From Buddleja alternifolia (Eukaryota > Streptophyta > Magnoliopsida > Lamiales > Scrophulariaceae): a stretch of DNA of 64,000 nucleotides. This document shows, in pieces, positions 14,092 through 24,405 of the stretch (position 1 is the stretch's first letter; each line of letters opens with the position of its first letter). Location of the stretch: assembly GCA_019426215.1 (NCBI GenBank), contig CM033399.1, positions 31,815,022-31,879,021 on the forward strand. The letters run 5' to 3'. The notes below the pieces were generated by a model. That model was given only the letters and a program-made list of their open reading frames with translations, was not told where the DNA came from and did no database searches. The position numbers were made by a program, and so were the translations under genes.

Positions 14092-14609
14092 TGATATAGT
14101 AAAACCAATAGAATATGCTATAGGGCCCAATTTGAGTTGAGTAAAGAACCTAGGCCCAACAGAGGCCCAAAAATTAAACTCACTAGACTAGGTCCGCGCT
14201 AAGTAACAACCCACAGGAACGAGTCATCCACCGTCCATTAGTGTCACCTGTTAGCATCCTATGAATGCCCAACTACCATTGGACATGGTGTTCTCTATAA
14301 ATACCCCCTCATAACATTCATTAAGGGCTGGAATCTAAAGAATATTCTCTCAAGAATTAGCCTCGTATGTAAATAACGAGTTTATAGACTGAGGAGTACG
14401 ATCCTATAAACATACAAATTGGAGTCTGAATTCGTTCTTCGAGTACGACCCTGAATACAACGATTATATTAGAACCATGTAGGCTTGATCCTAATTAGGT
14501 ACGTAGGTAACTTAATTATCATTGAGTGCAGCCGTAATATTTCATCATTGAGTGCAATTCAAGTCACCCCGAACTGAGAGACTCGAGTCTTCGAATTTGG
14601 GTTAGATTA
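14092..14609 (+). repeat. 5' LTR of the Gypsy/Tat element
   Basis: 518 bp, starting TGATATAG and ending TTAGATTA; the canonical CA end has become TA, while the 3' LTR keeps CA. A TATA box (CTATAAATACC) lies at about 14296-14306. It lacks about 28 bp present in the 3' LTR (near 23968-23999, with GGGTCGGGTC). The related LTR at 246-1014 has a similar piece, so this looks like a deletion here. Confidence 0.92.
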
Positions 14610-14610
14610 G

Positions 14611-14628
14611 TTGGCGCCGTCTGTGGGA
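14611..14628 (+). other. Primer-binding site
   Basis: TTGGCGCCGTCTGTGGG lies two bases after the LTR. Its first nine bases after the leading T (TGGCGCCGT) match the complement of a tRNA-Asp 3' end and later bases match less well, so the priming tRNA is uncertain. Confidence 0.65.
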
Positions 14629-14681
14629 AATCTACTTCGAGGTCGCTGAGACTTGTTAGTGTTAAGGGTGAGGTTAGGAAC

Positions 14682-16360
14682 ATGAAGAGTCGGTTGGTTC
14701 GAGAAGAGGAAGAATTGAACGCAGATCCGCCTGCCAATGGAGGAACGAGTGCTGTTATCACAATGACAAAAGAAGAGTTGGATAGGAGGATGAAGGAATA
14801 TGCCAAGGAAGAGATGCAGAAATATCTTACCCGTACTCCGGCGACTCCTAATGTAGGAGAGCCACGTACAAATCCTTCCACCAAAAGAAGTTTATTCCAT
14901 CAAGAAGAGAATCGTGATGGAGAGCAGGAAGGAGAGTCGTTAGACGATGATGATGTGGTTAGTGTTCGTCAAGAGAATGTAGAAAGCCGAGGAAAAGCTT
15001 GGGCGACGGATTCGCCGAATGCACGACGACGAGTGGTGCATTATGAGGAGGACAGACGTACAAGGATGGAAAAAGTTGCGGCTCCTATGCAGACGAGGCC
15101 AGCCCCCATGTTGATGGCCCACAATTCTCCTTTTGTCATTGAGATCATGAAGGAAGTTCCGAATGAGCTTTTTCGAATGCCAGATTTTCTAAAGTTTGAT
15201 GGGACGGGCGATCCAAGACCCCATATTACATCTTATGAGTTGTTGATGTCTTTGCAAGGACAATTGGATGCTATTAATGCAAGGATTTTCACTACGACTC
15301 TTGTGGGTCGGGCGCAAGACTAGTTCATGAGTCTAGCCCCCGCTTCCATAGAGTCGTACACACGATTGAAATATAAATTTGAAAGTCACTTTGCTAGTAA
15401 TAAAAAGACTAAGAAGTCTATATCTGTGATCATGGGACTGAAGCAGGGCTCAACCGAGTCTCTGCGTGAATTTATACACCGCTTCAATCAAGAAGCCATG
15501 GACCTTCTGGAACTTAATAATGAATTAATGTTAAGCTTCCTTATGAGAGGCTTAAAGAAGGGAAACTTTAATGATGCACTTTCTCGCCGCCCATTAATGA
15601 GGAAGAAATGAACGAGTTAAAGGACTCGGATAATTTACAAATTCTGAATGACCCTTGTGGTCGTAAAGAAAAGCGTAAAACTGAACGTTATGAGGGAAAG
15701 GGGTCGAGGAGAGATCATGATTGACCCTGTAGACTGAAATTTGAACATTACACCCCGTTGAACTCGACTCGTACGAGAATCCTGGTTGCTTCTTTACGTA
15801 CGAGTCAAATTCAACGACCTAAGCCAATGAGAGGTGGTGTGAAAAAGAACATGGATAGATACTGTGAATTCCATAAAGACCATGGCCATGACACTGAAGA
15901 GTGTTTTCAGTTGAAGGATGAAATTGAACGACTTATCAAATCTGGGGTGTTGAATGATTTTATTGATTGAACTTTGGCAGAAGTAAGAGTCCCAGAGGCC
16001 ACTCGTACGAATGAACTCTATCGACCGCGCAGTCGTTCACGAGAACGATCCCATGAGAAGTCAATTGAAAGGGATCGTTAGACTCGTAATCACGAGCAAC
16101 CCAAAAATGATGATCACAGAAGCGATAATTATCGCCCAAACAATGAACGCCCATGAGGCAACCCTCGTTATAACGAGCAAGATCACCATCGCCGCAATGA
16201 CGGTCCTTGTAATTACGAGAGAAATGACTATCACCGTAATGATGATTCTCGTAATCACGAGCGAAACAATGACTATCACCGTAATGACGGTTCTCGTAAT
16301 TACGAGCATAATGACGTTCATCACCATAATAGCGGTCCTCGTACAAACGAGAGAAGAGTC
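14682..16360 (+). pseudogene. gag region of the Gypsy/Tat element (broken)
   Basis: The ATG at 14682 opens a frame with an acidic N-terminus. A Retrotrans_gag-type domain spans about 15130-15600 and is interrupted by TAG at 15321 and a frameshift near 15600. The frame then shifts and continues through TGA at 15722 and 15968 to a zinc-finger-like CEFHKDHGHDTEEC at about 15873-15914. A basic repetitive stretch (about 16180-16350) is encoded by imperfect DNA repeats of about 57-60 bp; it reads as arginine/asparagine/aspartate-rich segments. In this copy the product would be non-functional. Confidence 0.85.
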
Positions 16361-19300
16361 GAAGTGCGGGAGGCACCCAAACAAGGTAATCGTCGAGAGA
16401 TACATATGATAGAAGGAGGACCTACTGATGGGGACTCCTCTAACGCAAGGAAAAGATATGCGAGGGAGAGTCGTTCAAGCTACTACCATAGCGAACCTGG
16501 TAGGATTTTTTCACTTACTGGAGGATCGAGTTCGAGGAACGAAGTGATTAGCTTTGATGATAGTGATTACGACGGAATGCACGGTCCTCATAATGACCCT
16601 ATGGTGATTTCAATGGATGTGGCCAATTTTGTGGTGCATAAGGTTTTGGTGGATATGGGGAGTTCTGCAGATAATATCTTTTGGGACGTTTTGAAAAAGA
16701 TGGAGCTGGATGGAACTCGGCTGCGAAGTGTAAGTACTCATTTGGTTGGTTTTACAGGATCTTCGATTATGCCTAAAGGGTCAATTGAGCTAGATGTGTC
16801 GTTGGGGGTGGGATCGAGGTCAAAGACGAACTGAATTACCTTTTTAGTTGTGGATGTACCCTTTGCGTACAATATGATTGTGGGACGACCCATGTTGAAT
16901 ACATTTAGAGCTATTGTTTTGACTCCACACTTGAAGATGAAGTTCAAAACAAACAATGGTATTGGTGAGGTGCGTGGGAACCAACTGGAGGCTCGGCAGT
17001 GCTACACAACTTCATTAAAGGTGAATTCGTCAAAGAAGAGAAAGCGCGAAGCTAGCAGAGTTGAAGTGTTAGATGAAGAAGCAAAGACTCTGATTGAAAG
17101 TTTGAAAAAAAAAAAACAGAAGCGAGTTGAGGCACGAGTTGAACCTCTGGTCCACAAATCAGTTGAACTTATATCGGGAAACCTGGACAAAATGACACAG
17201 ATTGGAGGAGAGATGGATCCTGAAGTAGAAACGAAGCTGGTGAATTTTTTGAGGAACAACTCTGATATGTTCGCATGGAAAGCTGCGGACTTCAAAGGTA
17301 TCGACCCTGCTGTTATCGTTCATCGACTCAATGTTGACCCGGAGGCACGACCTGTGAGGCAGAAGAGAAGGAATTTTGGTCCGAACAGAGACTTGATAAT
17401 TGAAGAAGAAGTCAAAAAACTCCTAGATGTAGGATATGTAAACGAGATCCAATTCACGGATTGGCTCGCTAATGTAGTCCTTGTACCCAAATCGGGAGGA
17501 AAATGGCGAATGTGTACTGATTTCACTGATTTGAATAAAGTTTGCCCTCGTGATCCTTACCCCCTACCTCGTATAGACTTACTTGTAGATTCTACTGCAG
17601 GTTGTGCTCTTTTGAGCATGATGGATGCTTACCAAGGTTTTAATCAAATAATGATGGCAGAAGAGGATCGAGAGAAGACTGCATTCGTTACAGCGAGAGG
17701 AGTTTATTGTTATAATGTCATGCCATTCGGTCTAAGAAACTCGGGGGCAACTTACCAACGACTCGTTAATATGATGTTTGAAGATAAAATAAGAAAAACG
17801 ATGGAAGTTTATGTAGATGATATGCTTGTGAAAAGTGTGAACGAGAATGACCATTTGGCACATCTCAAGAAGTCGTTCGCAATTATGAAAGAGTACGACA
17901 TGAAGTTAAACCCAAATAAGTGTACTTTCGGGGTACGAGGTGGAAAGTTCCTAGGATACATGGTCACCCAACGAGGAATCAAGGCTAATCCTGAAAAAAT
18001 TGAAGCAATTTTGAACATGCAATCTCCAACGAGTGTGAAAGATGTACAAAAGTTAACAGGAAGAATGGCTAGTTTGAATCATTTCATTTCTCGTTCGGCA
18101 GATAAGGGCCTACACTTCTTCAAAATTTTAAGGAATCTAAAACGCTTCGAATGGATGAACGAGTGCGAGGATGCTTTTAATGATTTAAAAATTTACTTGT
18201 CGTCTCCACCTCTATTAACAAAACCAATGTTGGGAGAACCACTGTTCTTATACTTAGCAATTTCGCTAGTAGCCCTTAGTGTTGTACTCATACGGGAAGT
18301 CGAAGGTGACCATCGTCCTGTGTATTATTTTAGCAAGTTGATACAAGGGGCTGAGTTGAATTATTTAGAAATTAAAAAATGGGCACTTGAGCTAATGACT
18401 GCAGCCAGGAATCTCAGACCGTACTTTCAGTCTCATCATATAATTGTATTAACAGATCAACCTTTGAAGCAAGTACTTGCAAAACCTGATGTGTCGGGGA
18501 GACTTATAAAATGGGCCATCGAGTTAGGCGAGTTTAGTATTGAATACAAGAGTCGTACTTCGACCAAAGCCCAAGTGATGGCAGATTTTCTGGTGGAGAT
18601 GACGGTAAACCCTAATGTGGTGGCCTCGATTTCATCTACAGATACAATCCCCTGGTCTTTACATGTAGATGGATCATCGATGACGAGACGAGGAGGAGTT
18701 GGAGTATGGTTTCGTTCTCCTGAAGGAAACGATTTGGAGTTTGCAATAAAACTAAACTTTGATGTAACGAATAATGAGGCAGAGTATGAAGTGTTGATTG
18801 CGGGTTTGAAAATGGCAAGGACCCTAGATATCACAAACGTGAAAATATTCACCGACTCACAATTAGTGGCGCGACAAGTTTCGGGAACTTATGAAGCAAA
18901 AGAAAAAACTATGGTGAAGTACCTGCAAAAAACAAAACAACTGATGATGGAGTTTGAGAAGATTGAATTATGTCAGGTACCGAGAGATGAAAATCAAAGA
19001 TCGGACGCACTATCCAAATTTGCAAATCAGATTGTGGGATCGACGAGTCGTTCTGTGTCGCTACTTGTTTCTGAACATTCTGAACTAGAATCTCAAGCTC
19101 TGGTCACGGCTCTAGAGGAAGAGACGAGTTGGAAAAAACCGATCGTAGAATACTTATTACAGGGAATCCTACCAGAAGATAAACGCGAAGCTCGTAGATT
19201 ATGTGGTAGAGCTGCTCGTTTCACTATCCTAAATGACGAGTTGTACAAGAGATCAAACGCCGGACCCCTGCTTCGTTGCTTTGCCCCGATGGAAGTAGAA

Positions 19301-19538
19301 TATATTTTAAGAGAAATACATGAAGGAAGTTGTGGAAATCACTCGGCCGGACGATCGTTAGCTCAAAAAATCACACGACAAGGATACTTTTAGCCAACAC
19401 TCGTGAAGGACGCACAATAGTTTGTGAAACGATGCAAACAATGCCAAATGCACTCTAATGAAATACATCAACCGGGAAAACCCATGGAAGTGATAAAAAT
19501 CGCATACCCATTTGATCAGTGGGGCATTGATATACTCG
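16361..19538 (+). pseudogene. Protease, reverse transcriptase and RNases H of the Gypsy/Tat element
   Basis: One frame continues from gag. The aspartic-protease segment has VDMGSSADNIFW (about 16651), where the active site is usually D-T/S-G; here it is DMG, so activity is doubtful. A stop at 16832 separates it from VDVPFAYNMIVGRPML. The reverse transcriptase (17300-18000) has MPFGLRNSGATYQ and the catalytic YVDDM. A retroviral-type RNase H remnant (about 18230-18500) is followed by an archaeal-type RNase H beginning LHVDGSS (about 18659), with NNEAEYE and FTDSQL. The integrase zinc finger follows (H..H near 19318-19345; CKQCQ at about 19431) after stops at 19391 and 19418. Confidence 0.88.
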
Positions 19539-19626
19539 GTTGATACTTATCTTAAACTCATCTAATATACTCGTATAATAAGACGAGTAGAGTTATGACT
19601 TATCGAGTGTTCGTATTCATTTATAG
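19539..19626 (+). other. Candidate intron 1 in integrase (88 nt)
   Basis: Begins GTTGAT and ends TTTATAG. Removing exactly GT...AG joins codons as ...GAT ATA CTC G|GT CCA TTC..., giving the continuous integrase reading DQWGIDILGPFPPVRNQKK. Read through, it hits a stop at once. The length is not a multiple of three, so the exact boundary is what restores frame. Confidence 0.6.
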
Positions 19627-20533
19627 GTCCATTCCCGCCGGTTAGGAATCAAAAGAAATATATTATAGTGGCGGTGGAGCACTTCACAAAATGGATTGAA
19701 ACTGAAGCGGTGGCTCGTATTACGGAAGAGGTTATCATTGACTTCGTTTGGAAAAATATCATCTGCAGGTTAATAAACCTAAGAAAATAAATAGAAATAC
19801 ATGTGTTATAGTAATAGATATTATAATTATGAAATTTGATTGGAAAAATATCATCTGTAGGTTTGGTATACCTCGGATTTTGATTTCTGATAATGGAACT
19901 CAGTTCAACGGGAAATCTATTACATCGTGGTGTAAAGAACTGAAGATTAAACAAAATTTTACGTCTGTGGGACATCCCCAAGCAAATGGCCTGACTGAGG
20001 TTGCTAACAGGATACTACTGCAACACTTGAAGACTAGACTCGATGGTATGAGGTCTGCTTGGGCAGACGAGCTTCCTGGGATCTTTTGGGCCTACCGCAC
20101 GACTCCAAGGTCGTCTACCGATGAAACCCCATTTTGTCTCGTCTACGGATCCGAGGCTGTCATCACAACGGAGATTGGTATGATGACTCATAGAGTATCA
20201 ACCTACGAGGTGGAAGAAAATCAGTGCGTGCGGGAGTTTGAGTTGGATGTTATTGATGAGGTACGAGAACGAGCATATGCAAAAATATTGAGACAAAAGA
20301 GCACCATGGCGAGAGCATACAACAAGAGGGTGTGAGAGAGATCCTTTCAAGTGGGAGATCTAGTGCTAAAAAGGGTAGAAGTCTCAAGGCATGTAAAAAA
20401 ATTGGAAGCCAATTGGGATGGGCCATATCAGATTACGAAGATAACCAAGGGGATGACGTTTGGATTGCAAGATCTTCAAGGGAAAGAATTACCTCGTCCG
20501 TGGCATGTTGATAATTTGAGAAGATTTTATATG
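19627..20533 (+). pseudogene. Integrase core and C-terminus of the Gypsy/Tat element
   Basis: After candidate intron 1 the frame reads YIIVAVEHFTKWIETEA, the first catalytic aspartate (GIDILG) lying just upstream. It is interrupted by candidate intron 2 (19769-19860), then continues CRFGIPRILISDNGTQFNG with the second aspartate, and the third (glutamate) in HPQANGLTEVANR. An in-frame TGA at 20333 precedes the C-terminal barrel region (VGDLVLKRVE..., WDGPYQI, RPWHVDNLRRFY), ending at 20533-20535. Confidence 0.85.
19769..19860 (+). other. Candidate intron 2 in integrase (92 nt)
   Basis: Begins GTTAAT and ends CATCTGTAG. Exact removal joins TGC AG|G TTT, giving WKNIICRFGIPRIL. The last ~20 bases of the upstream exon (TGGAAAAATATCATCTGCAG|GT) recur at the intron's 3' end (TGGAAAAATATCATCTGTAG|GT), so the segment looks like a duplication carrying AGGT at both ends. 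The two candidate introns total 180 nt. Confidence 0.6.
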
Positions 20534-20535
20534 TG

Positions 20536-20887
20536 AGAAATACATTGTTTTCTGCTTAATTTGGAATCCTTGGTTATACTCGTAAAATGATTTTATTGCT
20601 TTTTGCTCCTGACCTCTGAAACGAGTTCAAGGATAATGGGAATTTTAAATCCATGTTTTGCACTTGTAACACGAGTATCGCTCTTCGTCTTTGAAACGAA
20701 TTTATTGTACTTTAATACGAGTACGTATGAAATAAAAATATCCAAGTATGAGAAGATTAAATTATATTTTAAGTACGAGTTACCAGAGTGACATAAGCAA
20801 AAACTGTTCAGGAATGACATAAGCAAGATGCAAACAAACGACATAGAGAAAGTTTAAACTAAAAAGAACTTGGCATTAAAAAGGGCT
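20536..20887. other. Spacer between integrase and antisense gene
   Basis: No coding frame. The short motif ACGAGT and near variants recur many times. It would hold the 3' ends of both the sense pol transcript and the convergent antisense transcript; no clear polyadenylation signal was fixed for either. Confidence 0.5.
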
Positions 20888-23225
20888 TCAGCCTTGAGGG
20901 TTTTCTCCACTTTGGTTAGAAGATTGAGCTGGGTTGACCGGGGATTTGTACCAAGGAACCAGTGGGGCAAATTCTGAAAACTCAACGGGTACAAAATCCT
21001 CGTCTTCCGTCAAAAACGAATCTCGGAGGAGCTTGCGCTTATAGCAATCTTCGAGGCAATGAATATCAAAATCAGGCTTGAAGGCATTAAGGAGATTTCC
21101 ATAATCGATGCATTTGAAGAAGCCGTCCTTCTCATCCTTAAGGGCTCTAGACAGGAGCAGACGGTCGAATATAGTCGACTTCATGAAATCACGAGCCTCG
21201 CCAAAACGACCCTCGGCGAGCTCATCTGCGTATTCTTGGGATGCGAGAAACTCATGCTTCCCCTCAATACAATCCAACTCGTATGCATCCGCCTTTTCTT
21301 TTAACAACTCGTCATAACGAGCCTCGCCTTCCAAAATTCTGGCTTCCAAACGAGCGATTTCAACTTCTAATTCCCTCACAATTTCTTGATGCTTGACCCT
21401 CTCCGCAGTTAATAGACGACTTGACTCCATCAACTCGTTCTTCACTGTGGCAAACGAGTTCCTTTAGGCAGTGGTGTTGGCTACATACTTGGCGAATCTT
21501 GCCTTCTCTACCCTTAAGTCGTCTTTTAGCCCAGCACAACTTAAAGCCAAGTCATGCAAACATGATGAAGCCTGCACGAGTTGTACATGGATACTATTAT
21601 TTGATATACAAAAACACAACGACAATAGTGAGAGCAAGTAAACGAGTATTACCTTCATCAGATGAGCAGCTCCCATTCTTTCAACTGCAGCGTAAGACTG
21701 CTCAATCAGTATAGCCTTGTCACGAGGGAGATGCATGTTGCGATACATCTCCAGAGCCACATTTGTCCCTTGGGGACCCACTAATATTGAACTCTGAGGA
21801 TAAATCCTCCAATCTGGAACGATGGGATCATTTTTTGGATCTTCTTGACAGCGATCCGATACATTGTACTCCTTGAAATCTCTCAGATTAAGGGCTTCCA
21901 ACTTCTGGACGAGTTCCACGGAAGATGGTCGAGTACCAGGGAGAGTTTGGTCATCGGAGGATGACGTCTCCCTTCTTCGTTTAACTCTGCTGGATTCTGC
22001 CAGAGGTGGACGCTCAGGAAAAACCAAAGGATCGGGATCCTGACCAGCAACACCCTTATCTACAGGATCATCGACGAGAACCTCGACTCGTGCTTCCGGA
22101 CGAGTCTCAGAGATTTGACGAAACCCAGAAGTGACGATTCTAGGCAAGGGTCGCTCACGCCCTAAATCACGAGAGGTCTCCTGGAGTGGCTGTAGAGGTG
22201 GAGTGTTGGTCCTTCGCCGACCTGCAGAACCCTCGGTAGTAGGCATCTCTTCCTCGTCACGGAGGGCGGCTAGACGAGCTGCACGAGTGGCCATCTCTGC
22301 AAAAGAAGATAGATCTTACATTCAATATACATGATAAATACAAACTGTAAAAGAAACGAGTCTTACCTAAGTTGGGAACTCCAGGTATAGGTGCGGAGCT
22401 CAGACCGCAAGAAACGAGTATGGCCTCGGACATTAATTTTTCAGGAACAAAAGGCACAGAAACTAACCCTTCTAAAAACCCTCGTTCCCAAGTTGGATTT
22501 CCTATTTCTAACTCTCGTTCACGAATGCACCATTGCCTAGGAACGAGCCAATTTTCATTTTTTGGGGGTGAGATATAAATATATTTATCTTTCCACCGTC
22601 CGAATGAATCACGAGTATGAGCTTGAAGGATAGCATCTTGACGGGGCGAAAAGTAAAAGAAACGACGCCGGGGCGCTTTTTTACAACGATTAAGAAAAAA
22701 CATCCTGTGAAAATTGACTATGCTTGCTTCTTTCCCGTGAGCGGTCCTTAAAATTATAAAAAGTATTATATGTTTATAAGAATTGGGCAAGAGTTGGGTG
22801 GGACAAAGCCCGTAATTTAATAAAATATCATTAATACTTGCATGGAGGGGAAATTTAATACTGGAAATCAAATGGGCAAGATGAAATGTACTAAAACCTA
22901 TTGGAGGTTTATGCATACGATCTGAAGGACCCGGGAACCGAATTTCATAATTGGGATGAATAAAATATCGAACCCTCAACTCGTTTTACCTGGATGGCCT
23001 TATAGTCGAAACTTGGTTAAGCCAAGTGATGTGTGTATTCACATTAGCGGGACCCTCCAGATCTACGAGTTCCCCACCCTCGTTCCTCCGTGACGACTCG
23101 GGAACATCAATCGGTGGAACGAATCCCTCGACTAAATGATCGATGGCGTCTGAACCGGACCCCTCAGTAGAAGAACTTGAGATCTTGTTATTATCAACGG
23201 AGGTAGAAGATCTAGTACGAACCAT
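20888..23225 (-). pseudogene. Antisense gene of the Tat element, spliced, with two stops
   Basis: Exons on the minus strand: 23225-22367, 22296-21653, 21571-20888. Introns are 70 nt (GTAAGA...TTTTGCAG) and 81 nt (GTAATA...GTGCAG). The exons sum to 2187 nt, exactly 729 codons, and the frame is continuous apart from TAA at 22986-22988 and 21464-21466. The first exon encodes a globular region (HPNYEIRFPGPSD, FPLHASINDILLNYGL, RRRFFYFSPRQDAI) of the type called putative gypsy-type transposon or plant transposase-like domain. The second is low-complexity and charged. The third is a long coiled coil (RELEVEIARLEARILEGEAR) with an acidic tail. The function is unknown. The start is the ATG at 23225; a longer in-frame extension would need TTG. 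Confidence 0.82.
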
Positions 23226-23405
23226 AGTAAGGAAAGAGTAAGAGAAGAAGACGTACGAGAATGATGATAGAGAATTTGAATTCAACTCGGTCGTTGCGGA
23301 AGATTTCTACTTCTTTCTAAACAACCCTCTCTACAAAAAATTCTCTCTCTAAGAAAGTAAAAGTAAAAGTAAAAGTGAAAGTGAAAAGTAAAAAAATGTG
23401 TGGGA

Positions 23406-23415
23406 CTATTTATAG
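23406..23415 (-). promoter_or_regulatory. TATA box of the antisense gene
   Basis: CTATAAATAG on the minus strand, about 180 bp upstream of the antisense ATG. It is followed by pyrimidine-rich CTTTTA-type repeats (about 23355-23392), which resemble a plant core-promoter Y patch. This would drive transcription opposite to, and converging with, the LTR promoter. Confidence 0.65.
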
Positions 23416-23832
23416 GGAGAGAAGGAGAAGAGACATGAACGCTTCAGATCATATCCGACGGTTGAGGCGAAGGGATGCTTGAGATAACCAGTAACAGGGG
23501 TCATTATTAGTCGCAACTTTTGAGAACTAGAGACATGACGGCTGAGCTATTAACTGTAGCAGCACATCCCTCGAGATGATTGGGCACGTCTCTCAAGATG
23601 GGGTTATAATTAAAGAGCTTTTAATGCCACAATAACACGCTTATTTAAACTAATAATAAAATCGTCATTCATGACAAAAAATAATAAATGGAGGAGAAGA
23701 AACGGTTGAAGTAGAACACCTACTGTTGTTGAATGAAGATACGAGAACAACTCGGTTACATAAACAGTATAAAGAATTGAGTACTACTTCACCAGCATGA
23801 ATTCAAGTCGTTACACGTTTAATTCTTCACAC

Positions 23833-23851
23833 TGATGAAGTGGGGATTTAA
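23833..23851 (+). other. Purine-rich tract before the 3' LTR
   Basis: TGATGAAGTGGGGATTTA directly precedes the LTR. It is the expected position of the plus-strand primer (polypurine tract), though it is interrupted by pyrimidines. Confidence 0.5.
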
Positions 23852-24405
23852 TGATATAGTAAAATCAATAGAATATGCTATAGGGCCCAATTTGAGTTGA
23901 GTAAAGAACCTAGGCCCAACAGAGGCCCAAAAACTGTACTCACTAGACTAGGTCCGCGCTAAGTAACAGTATCGGGTCGGGTCGTTCCATGACCTGACCC
24001 CACAGGAACGAGTCATCCACCGTCCATTAGTGCCACCTGTTAGCATCCTATGAATGCCCAACTACCATTGGACAGGGTGTTCTCTATAAATACCTCCTCA
24101 TAACATTCATTAAGGGCTGGAATCTAAAGAATATTCTCTCAAGAATTAGCCTCGTATATAAATAACGAGTCTATAGACTGAGGAGTACGATCCTATAAAC
24201 ATACAAATTGGAGTCTGGATTCGTTCTTCGAGTACGACCCTGAATACAACGATTATATTAGAACTACGTAGGCTTGATCCTAATTAGGTACGTAGGTAAT
24301 TTAATTATCATTGAGTGCAGCCGTAATATTTCATCATCATACTCGAGGAGCAGTTCAAGTCACTCTGGACTGAGAGACTCGAGTCTTCGGATTTGGGTTA
24401 GATCA
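23852..24405 (+). repeat. 3' LTR of the Gypsy/Tat element
   Basis: 554 bp, TGATATAG...GATCA, with a TATA box CTATAAATACC at about 24084-24094. It is longer than the 5' LTR because of a GGGTCGGGTC-containing insert and small indels near the end. The target copy ATGGT follows at 24406. Confidence 0.92.

Follow-up and report, generated by a model that had tools for sequence, protein, structure and literature searches.

The 64,000-nucleotide stretch of the Buddleja alternifolia genome analyzed here (the window; GenBank assembly GCA_019426215.1, contig CM033399.1, positions 31,815,022 to 31,879,021 of the forward strand) holds one Ty3/gypsy long terminal repeat (LTR) retrotransposon, extending from LTR to LTR over 14092-24337, whose integrase frame is interrupted by two forward-strand segments that start with GT and end with AG: 88 nucleotides (nt) at 19539-19626 and 92 nt at 19769-19860. 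Sequence comparisons argue strongly that these are spliceosomal GT-AG introns gained by a Tat/Retand lineage inside the integrase core, and suggest that the family operates with spliced and unspliced RNA. The element probably needs part of its RNA to be spliced for integrase production, and another part to stay unspliced for copying itself.

Two introns in an integrase core

An initial annotation of this DNA had described the two segments and held that their excision restores a continuous integrase. Both were found exactly at these positions, and tblastn of relatives (e.g. P0002 and P0021) onto 19001-20600 recovered the integrase in three pieces, with one frame running to 19540, a restart at 19623 and a further restart at about 19826 with an overlap of 12 to 13 residues. 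In the relatives compared residue by residue, zero residues were gained or lost at either seam. The frame thus restored joins pol exon 1 (16835-19538, after a TGA at 16832), encoding reverse transcriptase (RT), RNase H, an additional RNase H (aRH) and the integrase start up to GIDILG (Pfam RVT_1, RT_RNaseH and RVT_3, and tblastn), to exon 2 (19627-19768, PFPP to KNIIC-R; tblastn) and exon 3 (19861-20536, with the ISDNG and TEV motifs; tblastn and residue counts), all on the forward strand; the rve domain in exon 3 scores slightly below its curated Pfam cut-off. The accompanying claim, that lengths which are not multiples of three make the GT/AG fit specific, could not be upheld for the window copy: a GGT repeat at intron 1 leaves four possible cut registers, and the final 20 nt of intron 2 copy the end of exon 2, with many registers restoring the frame and GT-AG being just one. 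Because of these repeats GT-AG is not decisive in the window copy alone; a chance GT-AG, possible when judging from that copy, is ruled out by conservation across the family.

Other family copies, which the annotation had named as the check on its interpretation, carry both segments. The genome (853.6 Mb) was searched with 19400-20000, giving 42 matches (40 of 741 candidates were scored), and each segment was present in 39 of the 40 places fetched, at 81-100% identity. Among 39 copies, intron 1 keeps GT in 38 and AG in 36, while intron 2 keeps GT in all 39 and AG in 38, the last count including L045, a copy without intron 2. Ranked by conservation among all dinucleotides, GT came 4th of 87 in intron 1 and 1st of 91 in intron 2, and AG 10th and 8th, respectively. 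The lengths vary (75-89 nt for intron 1 and 80-111 nt for intron 2) and multiples of three are not kept. The segment interiors drift like third codon positions, with a divergence per site of 0.245 (intron 1) and 0.214 (intron 2), compared to 0.21-0.28 at third and 0.06-0.14 at first and second codon positions; their GC content is 0.33 and 0.23, respectively, and that of exon 2 is 0.39. Ten copies gave LTR pairs with more than 440 aligned columns (of 20 tried; two gave short pieces of 116 and 81 columns, left unused, and eight gave none), with K of 0.025-0.070. As this lies below the divergence of the introns between subfamilies (0.14-0.37), the introns have survived many rounds of transposition.

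A pattern made from the intron-1 donor region (at most two mismatches) was found at 107 places in the genome and at none when read backwards, and exposed four further sequence groups (F1-F4). Five places per group were fetched, and of these 20 copies 17 show a segment at each site; in L118 intron 1 is mostly deleted, and intron 2 is absent from L124 and L130. The likeness of the F1-F4 intron-1 donors stems partly from the search pattern, a bias that does not affect the acceptors or intron 2. Automatically placed boundaries were GT..AG in 51/58 intron-1 and 43/59 intron-2 segments, about ten of the 16 intron-2 misses resembling acceptor offsets of one to few bases; the boundaries of L113, L115 and L130 were read by eye. 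The donor hexamer GTTRAT occurs in 44/58 copies of intron 1 and 42/59 of intron 2. At its 5' end, intron 1 has some 14 bases (GTTRATAYYTATCT) in common between F3 (L127-L131) and the main copies, despite interiors that appear unrelated; since these bases were part of the pattern by which F3 was detected, the conservation of that end is overstated.

Selection on the exons agrees with the intron interpretation. Among subfamilies A, B and C, dN/dS is 0.10-0.14 in exon 1, 0.08-0.10 in exon 2 and 0.11-0.17 in exon 3, and between A and D 0.14, 0.10 and 0.24, respectively; this set excludes L022 and includes four copies with a truncated exon 3 (L010, L013, L019 and L023), which inflates the exon-3 figures. 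Nonsynonymous differences (pN) among the five intron groups are 0.06-0.13 and synonymous ones (pS) 0.39-0.93. Purifying selection acts on exons 2 and 3 in a frame given only by excision, and constrains them about as strongly as the sequence preceding the introns.

Intronless relatives exist in the same genome. With an intronless Sesamum protein as query, all of the 150 best of 15,394 candidates, in a ranking that favors continuous copies, were in one piece across both intron sites, and 20 of 20 fetched relatives had zero gap at both. In a protein tree the intron copies formed one group (all 32 intron tips, with a support of 0.89), sister to five of the fetched intronless relatives (support 0.98). 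In a DNA tree, from which L022 (no exon 3 found) and the four truncated copies were left out, the rows of the intron lineage fell on one side of a branch (62 rows, support 80/70). F3 is the deepest intron group and has both introns in four of five copies; it differs from the other groups by a pS of 0.73-0.93, near saturation, and a pN of 0.07-0.13, and pS against the five sister relatives is 0.76-0.90, likewise near saturation. A single gain of the introns before the split of F3 would be the simplest history; the gain may also have preceded the divergence of the sister relatives, with later loss in the latter.

Intron loss and the repeat at intron 2

Gap patterns built from both flanks of intron 1 matched 7 and then 18 places, seven of them in the intron lineage; judged by their bases, the other 11 resemble intronless families, apart from one unrelated sequence. 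L116, a candidate intron-loss copy, proved to be an intronless relative. Intron 1 is lost exactly in six nested copies, namely the small clade of L109, L112 and L113 as well as L110, L111 and L114, which exon-3 trees place within the intron lineage; L109 has an additional 1-nt deletion in an A run. Intron 2 is absent from seven copies (L045, L109, L113, L114, L115, L124 and L130). Parsimony on the DNA tree, with L118 disregarded for intron 1, gave six changes for intron 1 (one gain and five losses, L039 among the losses) and seven for intron 2 (one gain and six losses). L039 had looked like a copy of spliced RNA by its BLAST limits; its bases show a 92-nt deletion and a frameshift. The exact intron-1 losses appear to represent about four events, and the copying of spliced RNA is their best explanation on the sequence evidence: only the GGT repeat flanks intron 1, which favors reverse transcription of spliced RNA. 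The losses of intron 2 do not prove splicing, given the long repeats there, and those of intron 1 are far better evidence. Taken together, the presence of the segments in 39 of 40 copies, the conserved GT and AG, the selection on the exons and the precise removal of intron 1 support the interpretation of the initial annotation.

The repeat at intron 2 consists of an exon copy (19749-19768) and an intron copy (19841-19860), 20 nt each in direct orientation, and the two co-vary. They were compared in 59 copies minus L040, L047 and L135, in which they were not located, with four F2 copies set apart. Taking one copy per subfamily (15 of 16; L047 not located), repeats from the same copy differ at 1.00 of 20 positions and those from different copies at 2.40; none of 20,000 permutations was as low, and while this test does not correct for kinship, subfamilies match in different states. 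Averaged over 52 copies the same-copy difference is 2.00, and in the first 39 copies it was 1.38 against 2.11, with 0 of 10,000 permutations as low. The exceptions are L023-L025, in which the exon and intron repeats differ by 5-6. The 20 nt upstream of the repeats match at chance level only (13.8 of 20 differ in the 52 copies). Agreement exceeds expectation in columns 6, 9, 12 and 15, which are third codon positions (0.85-0.94 compared to 0.48-0.75), the remaining columns being too invariant to reveal co-variation.

In seven copies (L111, L119, L121-L123, L125 and L126), intron 2 first duplicates the beginning of exon 3 and continues with AT-rich sequence resembling the 3' portion of the old intron 2, GT and AG being kept at its two ends. 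Such a chimeric intron looks like a spliced junction joined to an intron. Template switching between the spliced and unspliced forms of the RNA fits it as well as the co-variation of the repeats, which is best explained by such strand transfer; DNA-level conversion or repair may also be the source of both. It is quite possible, and we suggest it tentatively, that spliced and unspliced RNAs are packaged together and that reverse transcriptase switches template at the 20-nt repeat, reinserting intron 2 and rewriting its last 20 nt. Minus-strand synthesis begun on a spliced template would then jump at the repeat to an unspliced one, by which intron 2 would be restored. If true, the 20-nt repeat is a device for keeping the intron, and heterodimers of spliced and unspliced RNA have left a fossil record in its co-variation.

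A proposed splicing-dependent integrase and its alternatives

Read in frame, intron 1 has a stop at the first codon past GGT in 45 of 58 copies (TGA in the window copy) and a later stop in four. No stop was called in the other nine, of which L130 reads GGT TAA by eye and eight belong to F1/F2; these eight rule out that every copy stops at the opening codon of the intron. In most subfamilies, translation of unspliced RNA should therefore end before the integrase core and produce a Pol lacking it. By motif, we take exon 1 to hold the first catalytic D (present in 59 of 66 copies) and exon 3 to hold the second D (50/66) and the E (52/66). The introns would thus stand between the first and second catalytic D, and a full integrase would arise only once both are removed. 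In the mechanism we propose, unspliced RNA of most subfamilies would yield a Pol ending at the first intron codon, with RT and both RNase H domains and no working integrase, and doubly spliced RNA would yield the full integrase. Unspliced RNA would usually be the one reverse transcribed, by which the introns persist, and occasional reverse transcription of spliced RNA would leave copies lacking exactly one or both introns. Splicing by the cell, its partial nature and a resulting control of the ratio of RT to integrase are what the sequences suggest. GTTRAT is a weak donor relative to GTAAGT, and the initial annotation had considered such weakness to fit partial splicing; the hexamer is indeed kept in both introns, against mostly GTAAG, GTGAG or GTAAT donors in the antisense gene, which agrees with partial splicing and does not prove it.

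The alternative that fares best accepts that the introns are real and spliced and denies them a regulatory role: they would be tolerated passengers, born by duplication or break repair and surviving since genomic RNA escapes splicing. A direct repeat flanks intron 2, as is known for introns born by duplication or repair, and the intron-1-free clade of L109, L112 and L113 kept multiplying. Furthermore, the cited passage on newly gained Drosophila introns describes weaker splice sites (PMC2809761), so weak donors need no function. Against this stand the persistence of the introns across subfamilies with a pS of up to 0.93, and of GTTRAT in both introns, despite recurrent losses. We regard passengers as a possibility to be taken seriously, if the less probable one. 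It is rather unlikely that the intron-free copies arose by DNA deletion between short repeats instead of reverse transcription of spliced RNA. Such repeats flank both introns (20 nt at intron 2, GGT at intron 1) and L039 is itself an imprecise deletion with a TC overlap, yet a homology of three bases would have to have been used exactly about four times at intron 1, compared to one imprecise case. Very improbable is a non-autonomous family with never-spliced insertions, mobilized by intronless relatives: such relatives are abundant in the same genome (150 scored matches, all in one piece, in a ranking that favors these), and stops interrupt the exon pieces of 38 of 40 copies, but exons 2 and 3 are constrained about like the region upstream and exact removal of intron 1 occurred about four times. 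Private insertions in a single dead copy, to which the four in-frame pol stops and the repeats at both segments of the window copy might point, have next to no probability and are ruled out by the 39 of 40 copies and by the 107 donor places with none backwards.

Several observations weigh against a splicing-dependent integrase as proposed here. In F1/F2 the donor of intron 1 is GTGAAT and its length mostly 75-78 nt, without an in-frame stop in eight copies; its retention might lengthen rather than truncate the protein, and in L119-L126 it is possibly turning into coding sequence. The search for relatives establishes the existence of intronless relatives and says nothing on their share. The single intron lineage has moderate support (80/70), and exon-1 and exon-3 trees conflict in places, a sign of recombination among the elements that makes the event counts approximate. 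The loss in L039 is imprecise, taking 4 extra nt, and the intron-2 losses could stem from recombination of the two 20-nt repeats with each other. Inside single groups, dN/dS is higher (0.22-0.33 in A, 0.15-0.22 in B), as expected of decaying copies, and only 2 of 40 copies are free of in-frame stops across the three exon pieces.

The element and its place among known retroelements

The 5' LTR (14092-14548, 3' end approximate) and the 3' LTR (23852-24337, end approximate, just after a purine-rich tract) are direct repeats of each other in forward orientation and differ at 19 of 516 aligned columns, roughly 60 columns of this alignment extending beyond the LTR. The window copy is a dead element: pol has in-frame stops at 16832-16834, 19391-19393, 19418-19420 and 20333-20335, of which the two TAG stops lie within the integrase part of exon 1 and the TGA at 20333 in exon 3, and gag contains two stops, its frame also changing near 15593. 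Pfam recognized the domains of RT and, twice, of RNase H, as well as the integrase core in part; its minus-strand match is Transposase_28. RT_RNaseH (468-567) and RVT_3 (611-730 of an 852-residue frame) are followed by integrase, the order expected with an aRH. Protease and RT share one frame (16166-17398) except for the TGA at 16832, while 15965-16165 gave no alignment; the aligned part has no Ogre-type intron between protease and RT, and on these sequence features the element is a Tat/Retand element and not Ogre. The nearest database proteins to the RT-RNase H frame are Sesamum polyproteins (57%; best 120 of 4,342 matches). The hexamer ACGAGT is overrepresented in the element, with 29 copies (one inside intron 1) compared to 8 in the remaining window, and the sequence just past the 3' LTR (24338-24403) resembles the element's own 5' leader, like a tandem or recombined copy.

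An extra gene lies antisense between pol and the 3' LTR (20888-23306, minus strand), encoding Transposase_28/TRP28 (PF04195, E 8.8e-08 in a minus-strand frame at 22257-22982), and is retained in most family copies compared. A protein search with it gave one partial match. Two minus-strand segments (22297-22366 and 21572-21652) are GT..AG in 12/17 and 16/17 aligned copies, respectively (18 fetched, L137-L154), and their donors (GTAAG, GTGAG, GTAAT and one GTTTT) are nearer to the textbook form than those of the sense introns; owing to the antisense orientation, these segments should stay in genomic RNA. Three antisense regions (L137, L145 and L146, of L012, L039 and L045) show 70-78% identity to that of the window, and the corresponding integrase regions are 93-95% alike, which suggests modular recombination.

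A retroelement should lose an intron whenever its spliced RNA is copied, and since introns in a core enzyme were retained for so long, splicing and genome copying would have to be kept apart or balanced. Located between catalytic residues, the introns could let splicing set the amount of integrase relative to reverse transcriptase. With intron gain, recurrent exact loss, chimeric introns and a concertedly evolving repeat all present in one genome, the birth, loss and retention of introns can be tested directly. We found no report of introns in the integrase domain of an LTR element in the open-access literature searched, and to our knowledge splicing control of integrase relative to reverse transcriptase has not been described from plant elements.

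The arrangement differs from that of the legume Tat element Ogre, as the initial annotation had anticipated. An aRH between RNase H and integrase is common to Ogre, Retand and the present element, but here protease and RT form one frame and the two introns lie within the integrase core. In keeping introns the element is comparable to Penelope-like elements, retroelements that also retain theirs and that are not LTR elements and use other enzymes. Retand elements have an aRH and an antisense TRP28 gene between pol and the 3' LTR, according to the cited passages (PMC6317226, PMC11963269), and the present element has both in the same places; its distance from pol to the 3' LTR of about 3.3 kb (20537 to 23851) falls inside the range given there for Retand (2,933-6,566 bp; PMC11963269). 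The word "intron" is absent from the main text of that 2025 survey (PMC11963269), in contrast to the two integrase introns found here. Plant LTR elements are described as generally intronless, with Ogre and EVADE as exceptions, in the cited part of PMC12786077, which also describes how splicing in EVADE (Ty1/copia, Arabidopsis) and BARE1 yields a subgenomic RNA beside the full-length RNA. In those elements splicing cuts out part of the polyprotein for a short GAG, whereas in the Buddleja family it would join the integrase.
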